The position numbers and the translations under genes are program-made. Shown here piece by piece: positions 7,367 through 17,229 of a DNA stretch of 64,000 nucleotides. This DNA is from Pseudomonadota bacterium. GTDB taxonomy: Bacteria > Pseudomonadota > Alphaproteobacteria > Acetobacterales > Acetobacteraceae. How positions within the stretch are numbered: the stretch's first letter is position 1; every line of letters starts with the position of its first letter. The notes beneath the pieces are model-generated. The model was not told where the DNA came from. It was given only the letters and a program-made list of their open reading frames with translations, and did no database searches. The stretch is taken from the NCBI GenBank assembly GCA_021816925.1, contig JAKAWQ010000014.1, positions 1-64,000 on the forward strand, given 5' to 3'.

Positions 7367-8783
7367 GAGGCCGTGGTTATATCAACGGCAGCGTGAGGCC
7401 ATCTTCCACGCCGAGCGGTACGGGCTGATCGAGGCTTCGACCAAATCGGGCAAGACGTGGGGCTGCATCGTGTGGCTCCTGGAGCAGGCTATGGGAGGCC
7501 GGCGGGGTACCGCCTACTGGTGGATCGCGCCCTCCTACCAGCAGGCGGAGATCGCGTTCCGGCGGCTGAAGGGCAAGCTGCCGCGCAGGCTGTGCCAGCC
7601 CAACGAGGCGAGGCTCACCATCGCGCTCGGCAACGGCGCGGTGGTCTGGTTCAAGTCGGGCGAGCGGCCGGACGGGCTCTACGGCGAGGACGTTCACGCC
7701 GCCGTGATCGACGAGGCGAGCCGGCTGCGCGAGGAAGCGTGGCACGCGGTGCGGACGACGCTGACGGCGACCCAGGGGCCGGTCAGGATCATCGGCAACG
7801 TCAAGGGCCGGCGGAACTGGTTCTATGCCTTGGCGCGGCGGGCCGAGGCGGGCGAGCCCGGCATGCGGTATGCCAAGCTGATCGCGGCGGATGCGATCGC
7901 GGCGGGGGTGCTCGATGCGGCCGAGGTCGAGGACGCCAGGCGGGCGCTCCCGGAGGCGGTGTTCCGCGAGCTCTATCTGGCCGAGCCATCCGATGATGGC
8001 GGCAACCCGTTCGGGCTGGCGGCGATTGCCGAGTGCGTGACGGACGGAGTCAGTGGCACGCCGCCGGCGTGCTGGGGCTGGGACCTGGCGAAATCGCAGG
8101 ACTGGACGGTCGGCGTGGCGCTCGACCTCGAGGGCCGCGTGTGCCGCTTCGAGCGCTGGCAGGCGCCGTGGCAAGAGACGATCGAGGGCGTGCGGGCGGC
8201 GACCGGCGATGCGCCGGCGCTGGTGGATGCGACGGGGGTCGGTGACCCGGTGGTCGAGGCTCTGCAGCGCGGCGGGGGCGGCAATTTCGAGGGCTTCAAG
8301 TTCACGGCGCAGTCGAAGCAGCAACTGATGGAGGGCCTCGCGGTCGCGATCCAGCGGCAGGAGGTGCGGTTTCCGGAGGGTATGATCCGGGTCGAGCTCG
8401 AGCAGTTCGAGTACGAATATTCGAGGACCGGCGTGCGTTATGCGGCGCCGGAGGGCGCGCACGACGATTGCGTGTGCGCGCTGGCTCTCGCCTGGCGCAA
8501 GGCAGCCGAGGTGCAGCCTGGCGCGGGCGTGCTCGGATGGATGATGCAGCAGTTGGCTGGGCAGCAGAAGCAGCAAGTGCCGGACCCGCTGCCGTGGCGG
8601 ACTGCCCGTCTGGGGCGCCGTGACGATCCGGTGCCGGCGAGCGGTGTGGAGACGGACATCTACGCCGAGGCGAGGCGCAAGCTCGGGCTCAATCCCGAGC
8701 ATGTGTGTGTGCGCTGCGGCGGCAGGATAGGAGCGAGCAGAGTGACCGACGGCGTGCAGAGCTGGCATCCGGAGTGCCGATGA
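7338..8783 (+). CDS. Phage terminase large subunit (ATPase/nuclease)
   Basis: This is the packaging motor. The 481-aa product has a Walker A variant ASTKSGKT (residues 33-40), a Walker B-like AAVIDEAS about 100 residues later, and GNVKGRRNWFY as coupling motif. The RNase H-like nuclease domain shows WGWDLAKSQDWTV, LVDATGVGDPVVE and HDDCVCALALA with its acidic residues. The GTG start at 7338 follows GGCGGGA. After the nuclease there is a roughly 70-residue tail ending in a C-x2-C...H-x2-C cluster (CVRCGGRI to WHPEC), a probable zinc-binding module not needed in most terminases. Confidence 0.92.
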   Translation: MRTVETIDYERPWLYQRQREAIFHAERYGLIEASTKSGKTWGCIVWLLEQAMGGRRGTAYWWIAPSYQQAEIAFRRLKGKLPRRLCQPNEARLTIALGNGAVVWFKSGERPDGLYGEDVHAAVIDEASRLREEAWHAVRTTLTATQGPVRIIGNVKGRRNWFYALARRAEAGEPGMRYAKLIAADAIAAGVLDAAEVEDARRALPEAVFRELYLAEPSDDGGNPFGLAAIAECVTDGVSGTPPACWGWDLAKSQDWTVGVALDLEGRVCRFERWQAPWQETIEGVRAATGDAPALVDATGVGDPVVEALQRGGGGNFEGFKFTAQSKQQLMEGLAVAIQRQEVRFPEGMIRVELEQFEYEYSRTGVRYAAPEGAHDDCVCALALAWRKAAEVQPGAGVLGWMMQQLAGQQKQQVPDPLPWRTARLGRRDDPVPASGVETDIYAEARRKLGLNPEHVCVRCGGRIGASRVTDGVQSWHPECR

Positions 8784-8808: not shown

Positions 8809-10455
8809 GTGAGCGACGTGGCGGGCCGCGGCCCGGGATCCTGGTGGCTCCGCAAGGCGCCGAAGCTCATGCCCGGCGCGCGCTCGCGCGCGATGGGGCC
8901 GGGCGAACGGCCGCTCATGCCGCGCGGCACCGGCCAGCCTCCTATGGGGCCTTCCTACTATGGGCCGCCGACGAATACCGCGGCGGGCGGACCGAGCGGG
9001 GCGCCGAACCGCAACCCGGTCGAGCCGATCGACCCCTACGGGTGGAACACCGGGCTCGAATCGCAATACCGCGAGACGCGGCCCGATACGCCGCCCGGCG
9101 TGATCCGCGATGTGGATATCGGCACCAACTTCTTCTCGCCGTTCCAGCCGATCCTTCCCTTCGCGCCGCTCACCGGCAACTACGCCAGGGAGTGGGATTA
9201 TCCGGTCGGGGTCAACCTCGACTACCAGCCGAAGCGCTTCGCGCTGATGAGCCAGCTCCGGCTGATGAGCCAGAGCTGGGGCCTGCTGCGCTCGGTGATC
9301 GAGACGCGGAAGGACCAGCTGCTCACCGTGCCGTGGGAGATCCAGGCCAAGAGCGGCGGCGGCGCCGGCGGCGCGGCGGCGAAGCGCGTCAAGGAGTTCC
9401 TGCAGAGACCGGACAAGAAGCGGCGCTTCACGCAATGGGCGCGGCTGCTGCTCGAAGATCTCTTCGTCATCGACGCGCCGGCGATCTATGTCTGGCGCAA
9501 CGAAGGCGGCAAGGGAATCGAGGGCGTGCACGCGCTCGAGGTGGTGGACGGCGCCACGATCCTGCCGCTGGTCGATGACGCCGGGCGCATCCCGGACTGG
9601 CCGAGCCCGGCCTATCAGCAGATCATCAAGGGGCTGCCGTCGATCAACCTGACCGAGCGGGAACTTCTCTACCGGCCGATGCGGCCGCGGCCGGAGCTGC
9701 CGCTCTACGGCTACTCGCCGGTCGAGCAACTGTATCTGGAGGTGACGGAGGGCATCCGGCGCACGCTCTACCAGGTGAATTTCTGGACCGAGGGCTCGAT
9801 GCCAGAGCTCGTCATCACGGTGCCGGACCCGTGGACGCCGCAGCAGATCGCGATGTTCCAGGCGGGCTTCGATGCGATGACGGGCGGCAACGCGGCGCTC
9901 AAGAGCCGGGTCAGGTTCGTGCCGGGCGGGATGAAGCCCTTCGACATCAAGAACGCCAACGGAGAGGCGCTGAAGAGCGACTACGACGAATGGCTGGCGC
10001 GGCTGGTCTGCTACACGTTCTCGGTGAGCCCGCAGCCGTTCGTGAAGGAGATGAACCGCGCCACCGCCCAGGTGAGCGTCGAGGTGGCCGAGGAAGAGGG
10101 CACGCTCGCGCTGCAAACGTGGTTCAAGGACGAGGTGATGGACCCGCTGATCCAGGACGTGCTCGGCGCGGAGGATCTGGAGTTCGTGTGGCAGCCGAAG
10201 ATCGATGTCGATCCGCTGCAACAGGCGCAGGTGGCGGAGATCTACCTCAAGGCGGGCGTGCGCTCGATCAACGAGGTGCGCGAGGAGATCGGAGAGGAGC
10301 GCGTGGCGGACGGCGATGCGCTGCTGATCTATACGGCGAAGGGCGCGGTCGCGCTCGAGGACGTGCTCAGGGCGCCGGAGGCCGACACCAGCGCAAAGCC
10401 TGCTGCGAGCGAAGCGCGGCAGAAAGAGCCGGAGCATGCAGAAGCGCAAGCCTAA
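8809..10455 (+). CDS. Phage portal protein
   Basis: The 548-aa protein forms the dodecameric DNA-entry ring at one capsid vertex. GTG 8809 is preceded by GAGGAG at good spacing. After a Gly/Pro-rich N-terminal arm of about 110 residues, the portal core includes RLMSQSWGLLRSVIETRKDQ, LPLYGYSPVEQLYLEV and FSVSPQPFVKEMNRATAQ, the segments by which this portal family is recognised. The position between terminase and the protease/capsid genes is standard. The last 20 nt overlap the next small gene. Confidence 0.9.
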   Translation: MSDVAGRGPGSWWLRKAPKLMPGARSRAMGPGERPLMPRGTGQPPMGPSYYGPPTNTAAGGPSGAPNRNPVEPIDPYGWNTGLESQYRETRPDTPPGVIRDVDIGTNFFSPFQPILPFAPLTGNYAREWDYPVGVNLDYQPKRFALMSQLRLMSQSWGLLRSVIETRKDQLLTVPWEIQAKSGGGAGGAAAKRVKEFLQRPDKKRRFTQWARLLLEDLFVIDAPAIYVWRNEGGKGIEGVHALEVVDGATILPLVDDAGRIPDWPSPAYQQIIKGLPSINLTERELLYRPMRPRPELPLYGYSPVEQLYLEVTEGIRRTLYQVNFWTEGSMPELVITVPDPWTPQQIAMFQAGFDAMTGGNAALKSRVRFVPGGMKPFDIKNANGEALKSDYDEWLARLVCYTFSVSPQPFVKEMNRATAQVSVEVAEEEGTLALQTWFKDEVMDPLIQDVLGAEDLEFVWQPKIDVDPLQQAQVAEIYLKAGVRSINEVREEIGEERVADGDALLIYTAKGAVALEDVLRAPEADTSAKPAASEARQKEPEHAEAQA

Positions 10456-10714: not shown

Positions 10715-12694
10715 ATGGACCAGGTGGGATTTTATCTGCCGATCGCGAAGGTCGATCGGGAGAAGCGGATGGTGTTCGGCTACGCATCGACGCCGACGCG
10801 CGATCTCGACGGCGAGGTGATCGAGCTCGAGGCGATCAAGGCGGCGCTGCCGGGATACATGGAATGGCGCAACGTCCGCGAGATGCACCAGCCGAGCGCG
10901 GTCGGCGTGACGAAAGAGGCGAACATCGACGAGAAGGGCCTCTACATCGGCGCCAAGATCGTCGATGACGAGGCGTGGAAGAAGGTCATCGAGGATGTCT
11001 ACAAGGGCTTCTCGATCGGCGGCGATGTCACGGATCGCAAAGGCTCGACCATCACCGGCCTCGATCTCATCGAGATCAGCCTCGTGGACAGGCCGGCAAA
11101 TCCCGATTGCAAGATCGATATGAAGAAGGCGGCCGGCGTCCCGGCGCGTTCCATTGGAGATGAGACGATGGCGGAACCGATCCTGAGCTCGGCGATCGAG
11201 CACGGCATTTCGCTCGCGCCGGAGGAAGTGGGCCTCTTCGGGCGGCTTCTGGCGAAGCTGGCCCGGAGGGCCACTGCGAGGCCCGAAGGGCCGTGGCAGT
11301 CCGGGGCGGACGGTCTCGCCAAGGGCGGCGACGAGCCGGGCGACGGCAAGAAGCCCTACGGCGATGTGGAATACGCCGATCCAGGCTACCAGGAGGACGG
11401 CAAGAAGCGCTATCCGATCGATACCGAAGCGCACATCCGCGCCGCCTGGAGCTACATCCACCAGAAGAAGAACGCCGACGAATACACGGCCGAGCAGCTG
11501 GCGGCGATCAAGCGGCGGATCGTCGCGGCCTGGAAGAAGAAGATCGACGAAAAGGGGCCGCCCGAACAGAAATCCGCGCACGGGGACGACACGGGCGACG
11601 ATCCGTTCGCGAGCAATCTGGTCGATGCGGGCGGAGGGCCGGAGGCGGCGCACGACGGGCTGAGCCTCCCAGCGAAATGCGATGCGGCGATCGTCAAAAC
11701 GATGATCGACGTGAAGGCGCTCTCGGAGGCGTTCGACCTGATCCGCAATGCACAGCGCGGGCGCAGGCAGGAAGGCATCACCGAGGAGGACGGCGGCGAC
11801 CGTTCCATGAGCGAGAAGCTCGGGAGCGTCGCCCGCGAGCTGGCGAGCGTGATCCGCCAGATTGTCGAGCACGAGGGGAGCGAGGCGGAGACGATGAGCG
11901 ACTTCGCCGATGTCATTTCAGGAGTGGGAAAGATGGCAGACGTTGGTCTGACGAAGCGGGCGGCCGACGGCCGCCATCACGAGCATATCAGGAAGGCGGC
12001 GCACCACATCGTCGAGGCGCACAAGGCGTGCGGCGCGGCGATGGAGTGCATGGCGCGCGCGCGCCGCAAGGACGGCGAATTCAAGCGCGCCGATGGCACG
12101 ATCATCAAGGCGGCCGATCATTTCGCCCGCGCGATGGAGCACATGGAGAAGGCGCACGAGCACCACGTGCTGGCGCACCATCACCTGCGCCAGGCGGTCG
12201 GCCACAAGGGCGAGCCGCACGAGCAGCCGGGCGATGCCGAGCCTCCGATCTACAAGCCGGAGGAAGGGCTGGAGCCGCTGACCCAGCGCGAGATGACCGA
12301 GGGCGAAGTGCCGGAGTACGAGGTGGACGAGCCCTACCAGCACGGTCCGGTCGGGCACCCCGAGCGCTCGGGGATGAAGGCGGTGCAGGCCGAGCTTCAG
12401 AAGAAGGCCGAGGAGGCCGCGTATCTGCGCGGCAAGGTCGAGGCGCTGGAGAAGATGCCGGCCAGTCCGAAGGCGCGGCTCTTCGCGGTGCCGCGCGGCT
12501 CTCTGGCGGTCGGCGAGGCGGAGGAGACGAGCGCGACCGAGAAGCTCCTCAAGGGCGTCGATCTCGACGCGGCGACGCCCGGCGGGCGGCAGGCGGCGGC
12601 CGGCCGGCTGATCGGCAACATGATCGCCAATTCCGCAACCTTCGCGCGGCCGGTCCTGACGGACCCGAGCTTCCGCGGCGGCGCGGCGCGGTAA
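10715..12694 (+). CDS. Prohead protease (XkdF/S78-like) fused to DUF6582-like and scaffold-like regions
   Basis: The N-terminal 135 residues match phage prohead proteases: FGYASTPTRDLDGEVIE, then MHQPSAVG with candidate catalytic His58, then YKGFSIGGDV with candidate Ser100, and LIEISLVDRPAN. Around residues 213-282 lies a DUF6582-like block (YADPGYQEDGKKRYPI and AAWSYIHQKKNADEY). The C-terminal half is Lys/Glu/Ala/His-rich and mostly helical, as expected of an internal scaffold that the protease would remove. At 659 aa it is far longer than a stand-alone protease, so I infer a protease-scaffold fusion. It lies directly upstream of the capsid gene. The catalytic residues are inferred by pattern. 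Confidence 0.82.
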   Translation: MDQVGFYLPIAKVDREKRMVFGYASTPTRDLDGEVIELEAIKAALPGYMEWRNVREMHQPSAVGVTKEANIDEKGLYIGAKIVDDEAWKKVIEDVYKGFSIGGDVTDRKGSTITGLDLIEISLVDRPANPDCKIDMKKAAGVPARSIGDETMAEPILSSAIEHGISLAPEEVGLFGRLLAKLARRATARPEGPWQSGADGLAKGGDEPGDGKKPYGDVEYADPGYQEDGKKRYPIDTEAHIRAAWSYIHQKKNADEYTAEQLAAIKRRIVAAWKKKIDEKGPPEQKSAHGDDTGDDPFASNLVDAGGGPEAAHDGLSLPAKCDAAIVKTMIDVKALSEAFDLIRNAQRGRRQEGITEEDGGDRSMSEKLGSVARELASVIRQIVEHEGSEAETMSDFADVISGVGKMADVGLTKRAADGRHHEHIRKAAHHIVEAHKACGAAMECMARARRKDGEFKRADGTIIKAADHFARAMEHMEKAHEHHVLAHHHLRQAVGHKGEPHEQPGDAEPPIYKPEEGLEPLTQREMTEGEVPEYEVDEPYQHGPVGHPERSGMKAVQAELQKKAEEAAYLRGKVEALEKMPASPKARLFAVPRGSLAVGEAEETSATEKLLKGVDLDAATPGGRQAAAGRLIGNMIANSATFARPVLTDPSFRGGAAR

Positions 12695-14872: not shown

Positions 14873-14882
14873 TGAGGCGGTG

Positions 14883-15737
14883 ATGGCAAATCCCAGGGAC
14901 CTCGCGAGCCTCGCCGATTGCAAGGCGTTCATCGTTCCGGCGCTTTCCGCGACCACGGCATCCGACGCGGTGCTGGGGGCGTTGATCTCCGGGGTGTCGC
15001 GCTCGATCGAGGCCTATCTCGGGCGCGAGCTCATGGCGCAAGAGTGGGCCGAGATGCGCAACGGCTCGGGGCAGGACCGGATTGCGCTCAAGCACTTCCC
15101 GGTGTTCGGGGTGACGAGCGTCACGATCGAAACGAACGCCATACCGGCGGCCGGCAATCCGCCGACGCAAAGCTGGGGCGGCTACACCTTTGATGACCGC
15201 TTTGTCTATATATCGCCTGGTTTCATTGGTTTTCCGAGGTATTTCCGGCGCGGCGTGCAGAACGTGCAGGTGGTCTATTCGGCGGGCTACATCACGCCGG
15301 GGATGATCGCGGTGGCCGGGCTGCCCGGATGGGCGGCGAGTACGCTCTACGCGGCGAATGCAGAGATCGTGGCCGTGCCGCCCGGCACGGCGCAGGGATA
15401 CGTCTTCACGACCGCGGGCGGCGGCACGAGCGGGGCAGCGGCTCCGGCGTGGCCGGCGCAGCTCGGCGCGAGTGTGGCGGACGGCAGCGTGACCTGGCAG
15501 GTGACGGCCGGGGCGGTGGCGCTCTTTCCGGGCGCGCAACTCTTGCCGGACGGCATCAGGATCGCGTGCATGCAGCAGGTAGCGCTTCTGTTCAAGAACC
15601 GGACGCGGGTCGGCGATACGGGAACCGGCGAAGGACCGCAGCGGGTGAACTACATGGTGAAGCAGCCGATGCATCCGACCACGCTGGCGATGTTGCAGCC
15701 TTACGTGGACTGGGCGTTCCCGGGGGATGTGTACTGA
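14883..15737 (+). CDS. Phage head-tail connector-like protein with carbohydrate-binding-like insert
   Basis: The 284-aa product begins with LASLADCKAFIVPAL and SRSIEAYLGREL, the pattern of gp6-like head-tail connectors. It continues with HFPVFGVTSVTIE and ends with an IRIACMQQVALLFKNRTRVG helix. Residues about 149-211 insert a module of the form WAASTLYAANAEIV...TTAGGGTSG...PAW...VADGSVTWQV, seen as a decoration module in many phage structural proteins. The same type of module recurs in a tail protein at 37698-38606. The role would be joining portal to tail. Confidence 0.75.
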   Translation: MANPRDLASLADCKAFIVPALSATTASDAVLGALISGVSRSIEAYLGRELMAQEWAEMRNGSGQDRIALKHFPVFGVTSVTIETNAIPAAGNPPTQSWGGYTFDDRFVYISPGFIGFPRYFRRGVQNVQVVYSAGYITPGMIAVAGLPGWAASTLYAANAEIVAVPPGTAQGYVFTTAGGGTSGAAAPAWPAQLGASVADGSVTWQVTAGAVALFPGAQLLPDGIRIACMQQVALLFKNRTRVGDTGTGEGPQRVNYMVKQPMHPTTLAMLQPYVDWAFPGDVY

Positions 15738-15947
15738 GCCGGGTGGCCGGCTCACTTGCGGGCCTTCCCCGCCCGTGCTTACCTGTTCCTTAATGAAGCC
15801 GTGCTTGCGTGGCCTGAGAGAGATGAACCTGTTGCCGACCTTTGGGGTGCCTTTTGGGGTGGGCTCGCCGCTCCGGTCGGTCTGTTCGCCCCGCCCCGGT
15901 CTTACATGGCCTCTGCAGGCCGGGTTCAGTTGCATCAGGGGTAGCGG
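15738..15947. other. 210-bp gap in front of the inserted gene pair
   Basis: This gap is longer than almost all others in the cluster and contains T-rich stretches (for example CCTTTTGGGGTGG around 15850) unlike the flanking genes. It has no supported coding frame. It probably carries the promoter of the following two-gene cassette, but I see no convincing -35/-10 pair. Confidence 0.4.
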
Positions 15948-16202
15948 ATGAACGAAGCTCAGCAACAGGAAGTGGACCGGAACTACGACGCATTTCGCAA
16001 ACTGCTTCCCACCATCCTTCCGAAATACCAGGGCAAATACGCGCTGATGAAGGACGGCAAGGTGCTTGGGTATTTTTCCAGCGCGGAGGACGCGCGGGTT
16101 TCCGCCGTTGCCTTCATCAAGGACGGGCTTTTTTCGATCCAGCAGGTGACTGACATTGGTATAGACCTCGGCTTTTTTACGCATGCCGTGCCTGTCGGTT
16201 AG
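15948..16202 (+). CDS. Small protein paired with the retropepsin-like gene, unknown function
   Basis: The 84-aa product contains KLLPTILPKYQGKYALMKDG and LGYFSSAEDARVSAVAFIKD, a compact alpha/beta pattern resembling DUF5678-type small proteins. Its stop overlaps the start of the aspartyl-protease-like gene by 20 nt, so the two are almost certainly co-translated. Codon use is visibly less GC-rich than in the adjoining head genes (lysine AAA, TTT, GGT). It is probably an accessory cassette rather than a virion component. No function can be assigned. Confidence 0.7.
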   Translation: MNEAQQQEVDRNYDAFRKLLPTILPKYQGKYALMKDGKVLGYFSSAEDARVSAVAFIKDGLFSIQQVTDIGIDLGFFTHAVPVG

Positions 16203-16650
16203 CTTTGTCCCGGCCGTCGGGCCTCTGCTGCAGCTTGCCATTTTGCCGCCGGGTTTTGAGCCGCCTGCCCCATCGAATCCGGTCGGGCAACCGGGGTCTC
16301 CAGTGAGCTTGAAGCGATACATGGCCCTGCTCGACATGGGCGCTTCCTGCACATGCATTTCGGCGAAGGTGATCAGTGACTGCAGTTTGACGCCGGTCGG
16401 CAAGCAACCGGTGGGAGGCGTTCACGGTCATCAGCCGACCAACCTGTATCAGTTTCGGGTCGGCGTCGTGTTTTCACAGGCACCATTGCCGAGTGGCATC
16501 GTGAGCGCCAGCATTGTTGCATTCCCCGTCACGGGGGCGGAGTTCGTTCCGCCAACGCCGGGGATCTTTGACGTCTTGTTGGGACGCGATGTGATCTGCA
16601 GAGGCTCTCTGGCTCTTTCGTTCGACGGGCACGCGATTCTTTGCGTTTGA
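16183..16650 (+). CDS. Retropepsin-like aspartyl protease family protein (Asp-Met-Gly motif)
   Basis: The 155-aa protein has the core of a retroviral-type aspartyl protease. A hydrophobic strand leads into ALLDMGASCTCIS (about residues 48-60), where active enzymes have D-T/S-G-A. It is followed by a flap-like GVHGHQPTNLYQF region and then DVLLGRDVICRGSLALSFDG, the conserved second strand with G-R-D. Met in place of Thr after the catalytic Asp is unusual and could impair activity. Together with its small overlapping partner it forms a cassette inserted between connector and tail-completion genes. The substrate and role in the phage are unknown. Confidence 0.72.
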   Translation: MPCLSVSFVPAVGPLLQLAILPPGFEPPAPSNPVGQPGSPVSLKRYMALLDMGASCTCISAKVISDCSLTPVGKQPVGGVHGHQPTNLYQFRVGVVFSQAPLPSGIVSASIVAFPVTGAEFVPPTPGIFDVLLGRDVICRGSLALSFDGHAILCV

Positions 16651-16764
16651 CCGGGCGGTGTAACCGGGGGTCCCGGTGCGCCGCTGAGTGACGCGCCGGA
16701 AAGGGTGTCGTCTGCTTCATTATAGCAGTGGGACTTCATCGCATGGCCCGTTTTGGTGAGCCGG

Positions 16765-17229
16765 ATGCCGCTCGGTCGTGAGGCCATCTACTCGGCCCTG
16801 TTTCAACAGATTTCCGCCCTTCTCCTTTCGCCGGCAGGACCATTTCAGTATGCGGGGCGGCGCCCTGTCTCGATCAGCACGCTTGGCGCGGAGCAGTATC
16901 CCGCCTTCGTGCTGGTCGAGAAGGGCGAGATCTACGACCGGAGCAGGCTCTTCGCGCCGGCGCGCGTGACGCTGCTCGCGGATCTTTTCATCTACTCGAT
17001 CCACGGCGACGTGCCGGACGAAAGCGATGTTGCGAACCTGAACGCGCTGGCCGATGCGGTCGAGGATGCCGTGCAGGCGGCGTGCGGCCCGACCGCACAG
17101 AACACGCTCGCGGGCCTCGTGCAGGAAGCATGGATCGAGGGACGGCAGATCGTGACGCCCGGCTCCTACGCGCAACGGCAGAGCGAGCAGGTGATGGGAT
17201 TGGCGGTCGTGCTGCCGCATAGCCGCTAG
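16765..17229 (+). CDS. Putative tail completion / neck protein
   Basis: The 154-aa protein contains REAIYSALFQQISALLLS, then PAFVLVEKGEIYDRSRLFAP and ADLFIYSIHGDVPDESDVAN, ending with an EGRQIVTPGSYAQRQSEQV segment. The length, alpha/beta pattern and position between connector and gp37-like genes fit the small tail-terminator class. ATG 16765 follows GGTGAGCCGG; GTG 16756 is an alternative. The family assignment is by position and pattern only. Confidence 0.65.
   Translation: MPLGREAIYSALFQQISALLLSPAGPFQYAGRRPVSISTLGAEQYPAFVLVEKGEIYDRSRLFAPARVTLLADLFIYSIHGDVPDESDVANLNALADAVEDAVQAACGPTAQNTLAGLVQEAWIEGRQIVTPGSYAQRQSEQVMGLAVVLPHSR

Follow-up and report, generated by a model that had tools for sequence, protein, structure and literature searches.

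Within the 64,000-nt stretch of DNA analysed here (the window), two open reading frames on the forward strand form a compact cassette: gene A (15948-16202), encoding an 84-aa partner protein related to DUF5678, and gene B (16183-16650), encoding a 155-aa retropepsin-like protein of clan AA, each open at these coordinates and the two sharing 20 nt (16183-16202). A 210-nt leader (15738-15947) separates the stop codon of the upstream gene, at 15737, from the start of A, and a 114-nt trailer (16651-16764) extends from B to the next likely start codon. The whole insert of leader, A, B and trailer (15738-16764, forward strand) is delimited by the stop of a head-tail adaptor gene (14880-15737) and by the likely true start of the next structural gene, an ATG at 16765 chosen by comparison with relatives, in seven close members of which the flanking genes abut. 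GC content falls to 0.586-0.612 in the 500-nt windows starting at 15750, 16000 and 16250, compared with 0.63-0.78 in insert-free windows between 10000 and 24000, so that the composition of the insert is unlike that of its flanks. The overlapping two-gene cassette, GC dip and 210-bp leader described in a sequence-only reading of this DNA were thus all borne out by checks of reading frames, GC and spacing. A scan of the leader for sigma-70-like promoters, with other promoter types outside its scope, was negative, and no second copy of the leader was found in the genome. Similarly, a terminator scan found none in the trailer, its one terminator-like site for the pair lying inside B and scoring below the shuffle mean. 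Both genes are single-copy in the 4.3-Mb assembly. The upstream neighbour is the adaptor gene (phrog_442, E 9.7e-22) and the downstream neighbour a phrog_8150 gene, with a tail sheath gene further on, which identifies the surrounding element as a contractile-tail phage or prophage.

Insertion at the adaptor/phrog_8150 junction

Phage relatives were gathered from IMG/VR, where the capsid protein as query gave 54 loci and the adaptor gave 2, on contigs that the capsid search had also recovered. Where the window carries approximately 1 kb of DNA, the junction is empty in seven close relatives, namely the viral contigs of L040/L043, L045, L046, L085 and L089, together with L097 and L098, two genomes from the window's own genus; these seven empty sites are not seven independent lineages, as the viral contigs derive from few metagenomes and L045 and L046 share one junction. 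The adaptor stop overlaps the next start in L040 (on the contig shared with L043), L045, L046 and L085, as it does in L097 and L098, and the two are separated by a 3-bp spacer in L089. Across these five viral contigs the adaptor is 72-77% identical to that of the window and the phrog_8150-like gene 81-86% identical. An eighth close relative, L041 (on a contig shared with L042), has another insert, of 2.9 kb, in this position, and the junction may therefore be a hot spot for cargo. Within that other insert lies a 970-aa reading frame (L041:5720-8632), and at least six of nine more distant relatives have an extra reading frame of about 150-180 aa at the junction, which reads by eye as a tail-completion gene.

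Absence from close relatives that are otherwise collinear is expected of moron or cargo genes, and seven empty sites with one alternative insert place A and B in this class: they are well supported as moron-like cargo and are not core structural genes of the phage. The structural-operon role that their position had implied in the earlier reading does not hold, since the insertion is missing from the seven close relatives. Profiles of A and B also gave no match in 59 related loci (L040-L099, leaving aside the window's own L096), many of which are too short to span the junction. An 11-bp imperfect direct repeat brackets the insert, with its left copy (TGAGCCGGGTG) at 15735-15745 and its right copy (TGAGCCGGATG), 1022 nt downstream and identical at 10 of 11 positions, at 16757-16767, both on the forward strand. 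When 2000 pairs of equally long stretches were drawn at random, 71 gave as good a match, although a match spaced by exactly 1022 nt was seen at only 1 of about 13980 positions; the repeat is weak evidence.

The retropepsin fold of B and its active-site triplet

A model of B built from 74 sequences (pLDDT 91.9, pTM 0.84) places the protein confidently among the retropepsins. Foldseek ranked the Rickettsia APRc, FIV, RSV and DDI1 proteases at the top, the best 22 matches all being retropepsins, and the best of them, APRc (RC1339) of Rickettsia conorii (5c9b, 5c9f), has the same fold as B (VIA against 5c9f: Z 12.2, rmsd 2.0 over 114 residues). APRc differs from the window's B in its sequence, at 10-11% identity, and in that the window carries D-M-G. 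The best PDB match of the B family profile is the retropepsin domain of DDI1 (3s8i, E 7.9e-8), which is eukaryotic and lies within a larger, ubiquitin-linked protein, and for which we know of no A-type partner. Fold and family profile therefore agree with the earlier suggestion that B is retropepsin-like, and the structural match by which that suggestion was to be checked was found. Taken alone, the window's B reaches E 0.0012 and 19.9 bits against Pfam Asp_protease_2, below the 24.3 cut-off, and 17 of 18 scanned family members match this model at E 0.01. At the same threshold, TIGR03698 and TIGR02281, the NCBIfam models of clan AA aspartic proteases, recognise 35 and 31, respectively, of the 74 B proteins, whereas the window's B matched no NCBIfam model.

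The second signature of the clan, two hydrophobic residues and glycine near the C-terminus, is intact as Leu-Leu-Gly-Arg-Asp (16576-16590), and LLGRDV aligns with the family. The first, D-T/S-G-A, retains Asp, Gly and Ala, with Met in the place of Thr/Ser, which lowers any claim of catalysis. The triplet Asp51-Met52-Gly53 (codons GAC ATG GGC, 16333-16341) had been read correctly from the sequence, and Met proved not to be fixed in the family: 103 of 107 distinct B rows cover the site, of which 100 read D-T-G and one each reads D-M-G (the window), D-I-G (L134) and D-T-R (L018), noting that one of the two genome-scan patterns accepted only T or M here, so that other variants are under-sampled. 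As ATG is one transition away from the Thr codon ACG and the substitution comes from a single assembled contig, a sequencing error is conceivable. In PMC7212762, T26A HIV-1 protease is quoted as virtually monomeric with residual activity only, and the corresponding Ser-to-Ala change abolishes dimerisation of the PEG10 protease. By analogy with T26A, Met instead of Thr should weaken dimerisation of B. The branch leading to the window's B is short (0.42, compared with 0.63 for L114 and 0.63 for L112), and nothing besides Met points to decay. The D-I-G copy (L134:5736-6381), in a Novosphingobium MAG, occupies a chromosomal position common to the D-T-G copies of L124 and L137, from which it differs by dN 0.17 and 0.19, respectively, compared with 0.19 between those two (dS saturated). 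L134 has a second pair, reading D-T-G, at 9584-10271.

Further variation was observed elsewhere in the family. A SEC-C-like C-terminus (CPCGSGxxxxxC) is present in 7 of 102 B proteins (L129, L138, L145, L149, L165, L167 and L172), a motif linked to SecA. In L155 (6001-8059) B lies in two pieces about 1.6 kb apart, and the reading frame at 8115 of that locus clusters with transposase-like reading frames of L113 and L162.

Pairing, co-inheritance and distribution of A and B

Searches of 299 genomes of the same bacterial family with A and B as separate queries converged on the same loci in G145, G229 and G054 besides the window, with two weak matches to B alone in G153; B is thus found in 5 of the 299 (the window's own genome included, and one with weak partial matches only). 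The adjoining pair in three more genomes, together with the confident fold of B, shows that the cassette is real and beyond chance. A five-row alignment of B recovered 92 relatives from a collection of 84,980 species, of which 80 were kept, and 4 from IMG/VR. A lies directly upstream of B in 76 of the 80 genome loci and all 4 viral loci (profile search of six-frame reading frames), a count obtained with an A profile iterated on these same loci. As a control, an un-iterated four-sequence profile found A in 63/80 and 4/4, with no other match among 10,661 reading frames; neither profile gave a match among reversed reading frames, and the sole extra match of the iterated one is a second A copy in L131. 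In two loci without A (L139 and L156) B begins some 200 nt inside the edge of the available DNA, and in L119 and L135 A was not detected at the profile sensitivity used. At least 3 of the 80 loci (L101, L105 and L108) duplicate query loci, and the scan was seeded with already paired B proteins, which favours paired matches.

The A side gives a more varied picture. In 385 genomes of the class, A was found in 19 (the window's own included) at 28 places, with B downstream in 20 (broken or fragmentary in L020 and L030) and absent in 8, one of which (L022) retains a remnant of B by eye; at 6 further A places B was beside 2 and absent at 4. Two of the places without B are the N-terminal part of ParA-like reading frames, and A may accordingly have wider functions. 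In these two (L021:646-1734 and L023:1261-1830, both on the reverse strand) the A domain forms the N-terminus and the ParA-like reading frame has a KGGAGKTT motif. Among A variants, those of one genus (L187-L190) end in a LALNW..CCG tail with no adjoining B, and perhaps have another partner.

Where A and B occur together, they have diverged together. Over 88 loci with a single pair, the distances of the two genes are correlated (r 0.547), a value reached in none of 2000 permutations, which indicates shared inheritance and not contact, and the same two loci are nearest to the window for both genes (L114, A 60% and B 54%; L112, A 57% and B 54%). The genes overlap in 65 of 112 pairs, mostly by 26, 20 or 14 nt, with gaps of 0-30 nt in 23 others and of 31-250 nt in 24, counts that depend on the start codons chosen and include some pairs twice through repeated loci. 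Of 38 A and 44 B close pairs for which dN/dS was computed, 25 of each were listed; among the listed pairs with usable dS, the others being saturated, 24 of 25 (12 A and 13 B) gave 0.04-0.35, indicating purifying selection, and the remaining one, between tandem A copies, gave 1.16. No natural A-B fusion was found among the scanned loci (80 genome and 4 viral). The pair thus does travel together between phages and bacteria, as the earlier reading had proposed to check, and its existence as a conserved, co-inherited module is well supported. Five tandem A-B pairs were observed on a single contig (G546:C98:247-4836; L025, L031 and L037-L039).

The single-chain model of A comprises a helix, a beta hairpin, a second helix and a strand (pLDDT 81), followed by a flexible C-terminal tail (residues 72-84, 16161-16199, including DLGFFTHA) in which pLDDT falls below 50. 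At E 0.01, 20 of 82 A proteins are recognised by Pfam DUF5678 (PF18929), the best of them at 1.1e-7, and the window's A scores E 0.072 and 13.4 bits, below the gathering cut-off of 23.2; by sequence A is related to DUF5678 and not a member under the cut-off rule. A DUF5678 search of the window's own genome gave no match, as did 14 control genomes, making it uninformative, and nothing usable for A was found in the PDB by profile (best E 0.17) or by fold (best E 1.3). A loose tail motif, LG followed by two mostly aromatic residues and S/T, occurs in 39 of 59 overlapping A proteins, compared with 1 of 39 spaced ones and 1 of 10 lacking B (L022, with its remnant). It is missing from the ParA-fused L021 and L023 and from the lone L027 and L029, and a different motif ends 13 of the 39 spaced proteins, so that the tail varies between subtypes. 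That the tail is conserved yet disordered alone suggests that it binds something, with B the obvious candidate, and the model thus suggests the tail as the likeliest contact with B. The overlapping start of B may account for part of this conservation.

The titles of pair-bearing genomes span Alphaproteobacteria, Planctomycetota, Nitrospinota, Treponema, Bacteroidetes, Clostridia and others, many of them MAGs for which single taxon assignments may be wrong. Within this range presence is patchy. A four-row A profile matched only G000 and G054 among 395 genomes of the order. Single-sequence searches with B gave no relative in IMG/VR or in plasmids and one doubtful match in phages (a Streptomyces phage, E 0.5), and those with A gave nothing in phages or plasmids; relatives emerged from whole genomes and from alignment-based searches. 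The 760 called neighbours at 81 loci include no family seen at more than 4 of them; the commonest among the 143 nearest neighbours is a phage tape-measure protein (5, not mapped to single loci). Reading frames that cluster with one another and are read as tape-measure genes occur no more than about 1 kb from the pair in four loci of Clostridia (L131, L139, L159 and L161), upstream of it in three and downstream in L139, and L182 and L184 are presumably phage contigs, judging by their neighbours. Many homologues reside in bacterial contigs without phage neighbours. By Pfam matches, the pair adjoins a gene for Rho in sphingomonads (rho-like), lies near one for methionine synthase in Nitrospinota (metH) and adjoins one for SecA in one Bacilli genome (secA), with other neighbours that we take to be mnmE-like, trigger-factor-like and prfB-like, respectively. 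In sphingomonads and Nitrospinota the pair seems to be a stable part of the chromosome, an arrangement as compatible with a cellular role as with cargo. A clear housekeeping function outside phages, which the sequence-only reading had named as evidence against its view, did not emerge from these bacterial homologues with their mixed neighbours and patchy presence.

Proposed mechanism, competing explanations and known systems

With some reservation, we regard it as probable that A and B are horizontally acquired cargo of a contractile-tail phage or prophage, consisting of a protease (B) and its dedicated partner (A), a mechanism that we infer from the pairing, the overlap, the co-divergence and the modelled tail of A. 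B, a small retropepsin, would act as a homodimer, and A would most likely be its regulator, whether as inhibitor, chaperone or substrate-presenting subunit. Encoded just upstream and usually overlapping, A would be made together with B through translational coupling, and its flexible C-terminal tail would contact B. The module would probably process or remove a protein of the host or of a competitor phage, to the benefit of the lysogen. In the window's copy, the 'fireman's grip' contact would be lost through the change from Thr to Met beside the catalytic Asp and the dimer would be weaker, with activity expected to be low or dependent on the partner. A bolder proposal, which we put forward tentatively and hold to be doubtful, is that A and B represent an undescribed, phylum-crossing two-component proteolytic system, in which a dedicated small protein would control a retropepsin through its flexible tail and which would serve phages and hosts either in conflict or in protein quality control. 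In some copies, that of the window included, a hydrophobic residue would replace the dimer-locking Thr, the partner having taken over the task of stabilising the dimer.

Several features of the pair are shared with modules of conflict. A small upstream gene overlapping a larger one, the patchy presence of A in the class, lone A genes, the tandem array of five pairs and the occurrence in viral contigs and near phage genes would all suit a toxin-antitoxin-like or abortive-infection module, in which A restrains a harmful protease B until infection by another phage removes or cleaves A and frees B. Furthermore, at E 0.01, 50 of 74 B proteins are picked up by PDC-M08B, a PADLOC profile for a candidate phage defence system. 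However, these matches are weak (best 1.1e-8), are consistent with a common retropepsin domain and do not extend to the window's B, while none of 82 A proteins matches a PDC-M08 model, the sole PADLOC matches for A being weak ones to DrmC and PDC-M01B; neither protein of the window matched any PADLOC model at E 0.01. PADLOC found single restriction or defence genes among the 143 nearest neighbours, with no defence family in more than 2, and chromosomal positions are common within two clades, leaving this explanation unlikely. We likewise see little prospect for an accessory pair with a stable bacterial role in protein processing, for example protein quality control, that the phage has taken up without benefit. 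The SEC-C-like zinc motif of a few B proteins, the rho-like, metH and secA neighbours and the DDI1 proteases as best PDB profile matches are consistent with such a role, but patchiness, with B in so few genomes of the family, argues against it, as does the lack of any neighbouring family shared by more than 4 of the 81 loci.

The unusual triplet raises the question of whether Met has cost B its activity in this phage, so that the pair works by binding only or is being lost. Met is unique among the 103 readable B proteins, and loss of the Thr/Ser contact is reported to be severe in the HIV-1 and PEG10 proteases (PMC7212762). Against decay, both reading frames, the overlap, the tail of A and the LLGRD signature are intact, the branch of the window's B is not long, and the D-I-G copy of L134 is as close to the D-T-G copies of L124 and L137 as those two are mutually; we consider a pseudo-enzyme rather improbable. 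Least convincing, and in our judgement very improbable, is a maturation protease or structural component of the phage encoded in its head-tail region: the pair does sit inside the structural operon, and tape-measure families are the commonest among nearest neighbours, and genes read as such lie close to it in the four Clostridia loci, but it is missing from the seven close relatives in an otherwise collinear region, the 59 capsid- or adaptor-related loci (often too short for the junction) yielded no match to its profiles, and numerous homologues come from bacterial contigs in which phage neighbours are absent. The reading frame at 10715-12694, upstream of the capsid gene, has what we take to be a prohead protease-like N-terminus, which also counts against a maturation role for B.

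The pair can be set beside other bacterial retropepsins, few of which have been studied so far. In PMC11957791 and PMC12239564, RimB and RloA of Pseudomonas are retropepsin-like proteases with operon partners, RloA being secreted. The partner is either an ATP-grasp enzyme, joined in some species by an EAL phosphodiesterase, or an ATP-grasp protein together with an inactive transglutaminase membrane protein, and the 84-aa A is unlike any of those described there. No description of the A-B pair was found in open-licence PMC papers, judged mostly by title and abstract; the same literature yielded no mention of PDC-M08 and, in the portions covered, an unrelated mention only of DUF5678. That a small partner gene has been kept next to one retropepsin family across many phyla suggests that control is exerted in a common way; no published test of this was found in the portions of that literature covered. 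The D-M-G and D-I-G copies are natural tests of the Thr contact credited with keeping retroviral protease dimers together, and the phage location indicates that the pair moves as cargo, making its ecological benefit testable. Similar models from several phages, a crAss-like one among them, are present in BFVD, and retropepsins in phages are thus already known as such. In a search of 115 genomes of the class, PDC-M08B matched two long reading frames in the same genome.
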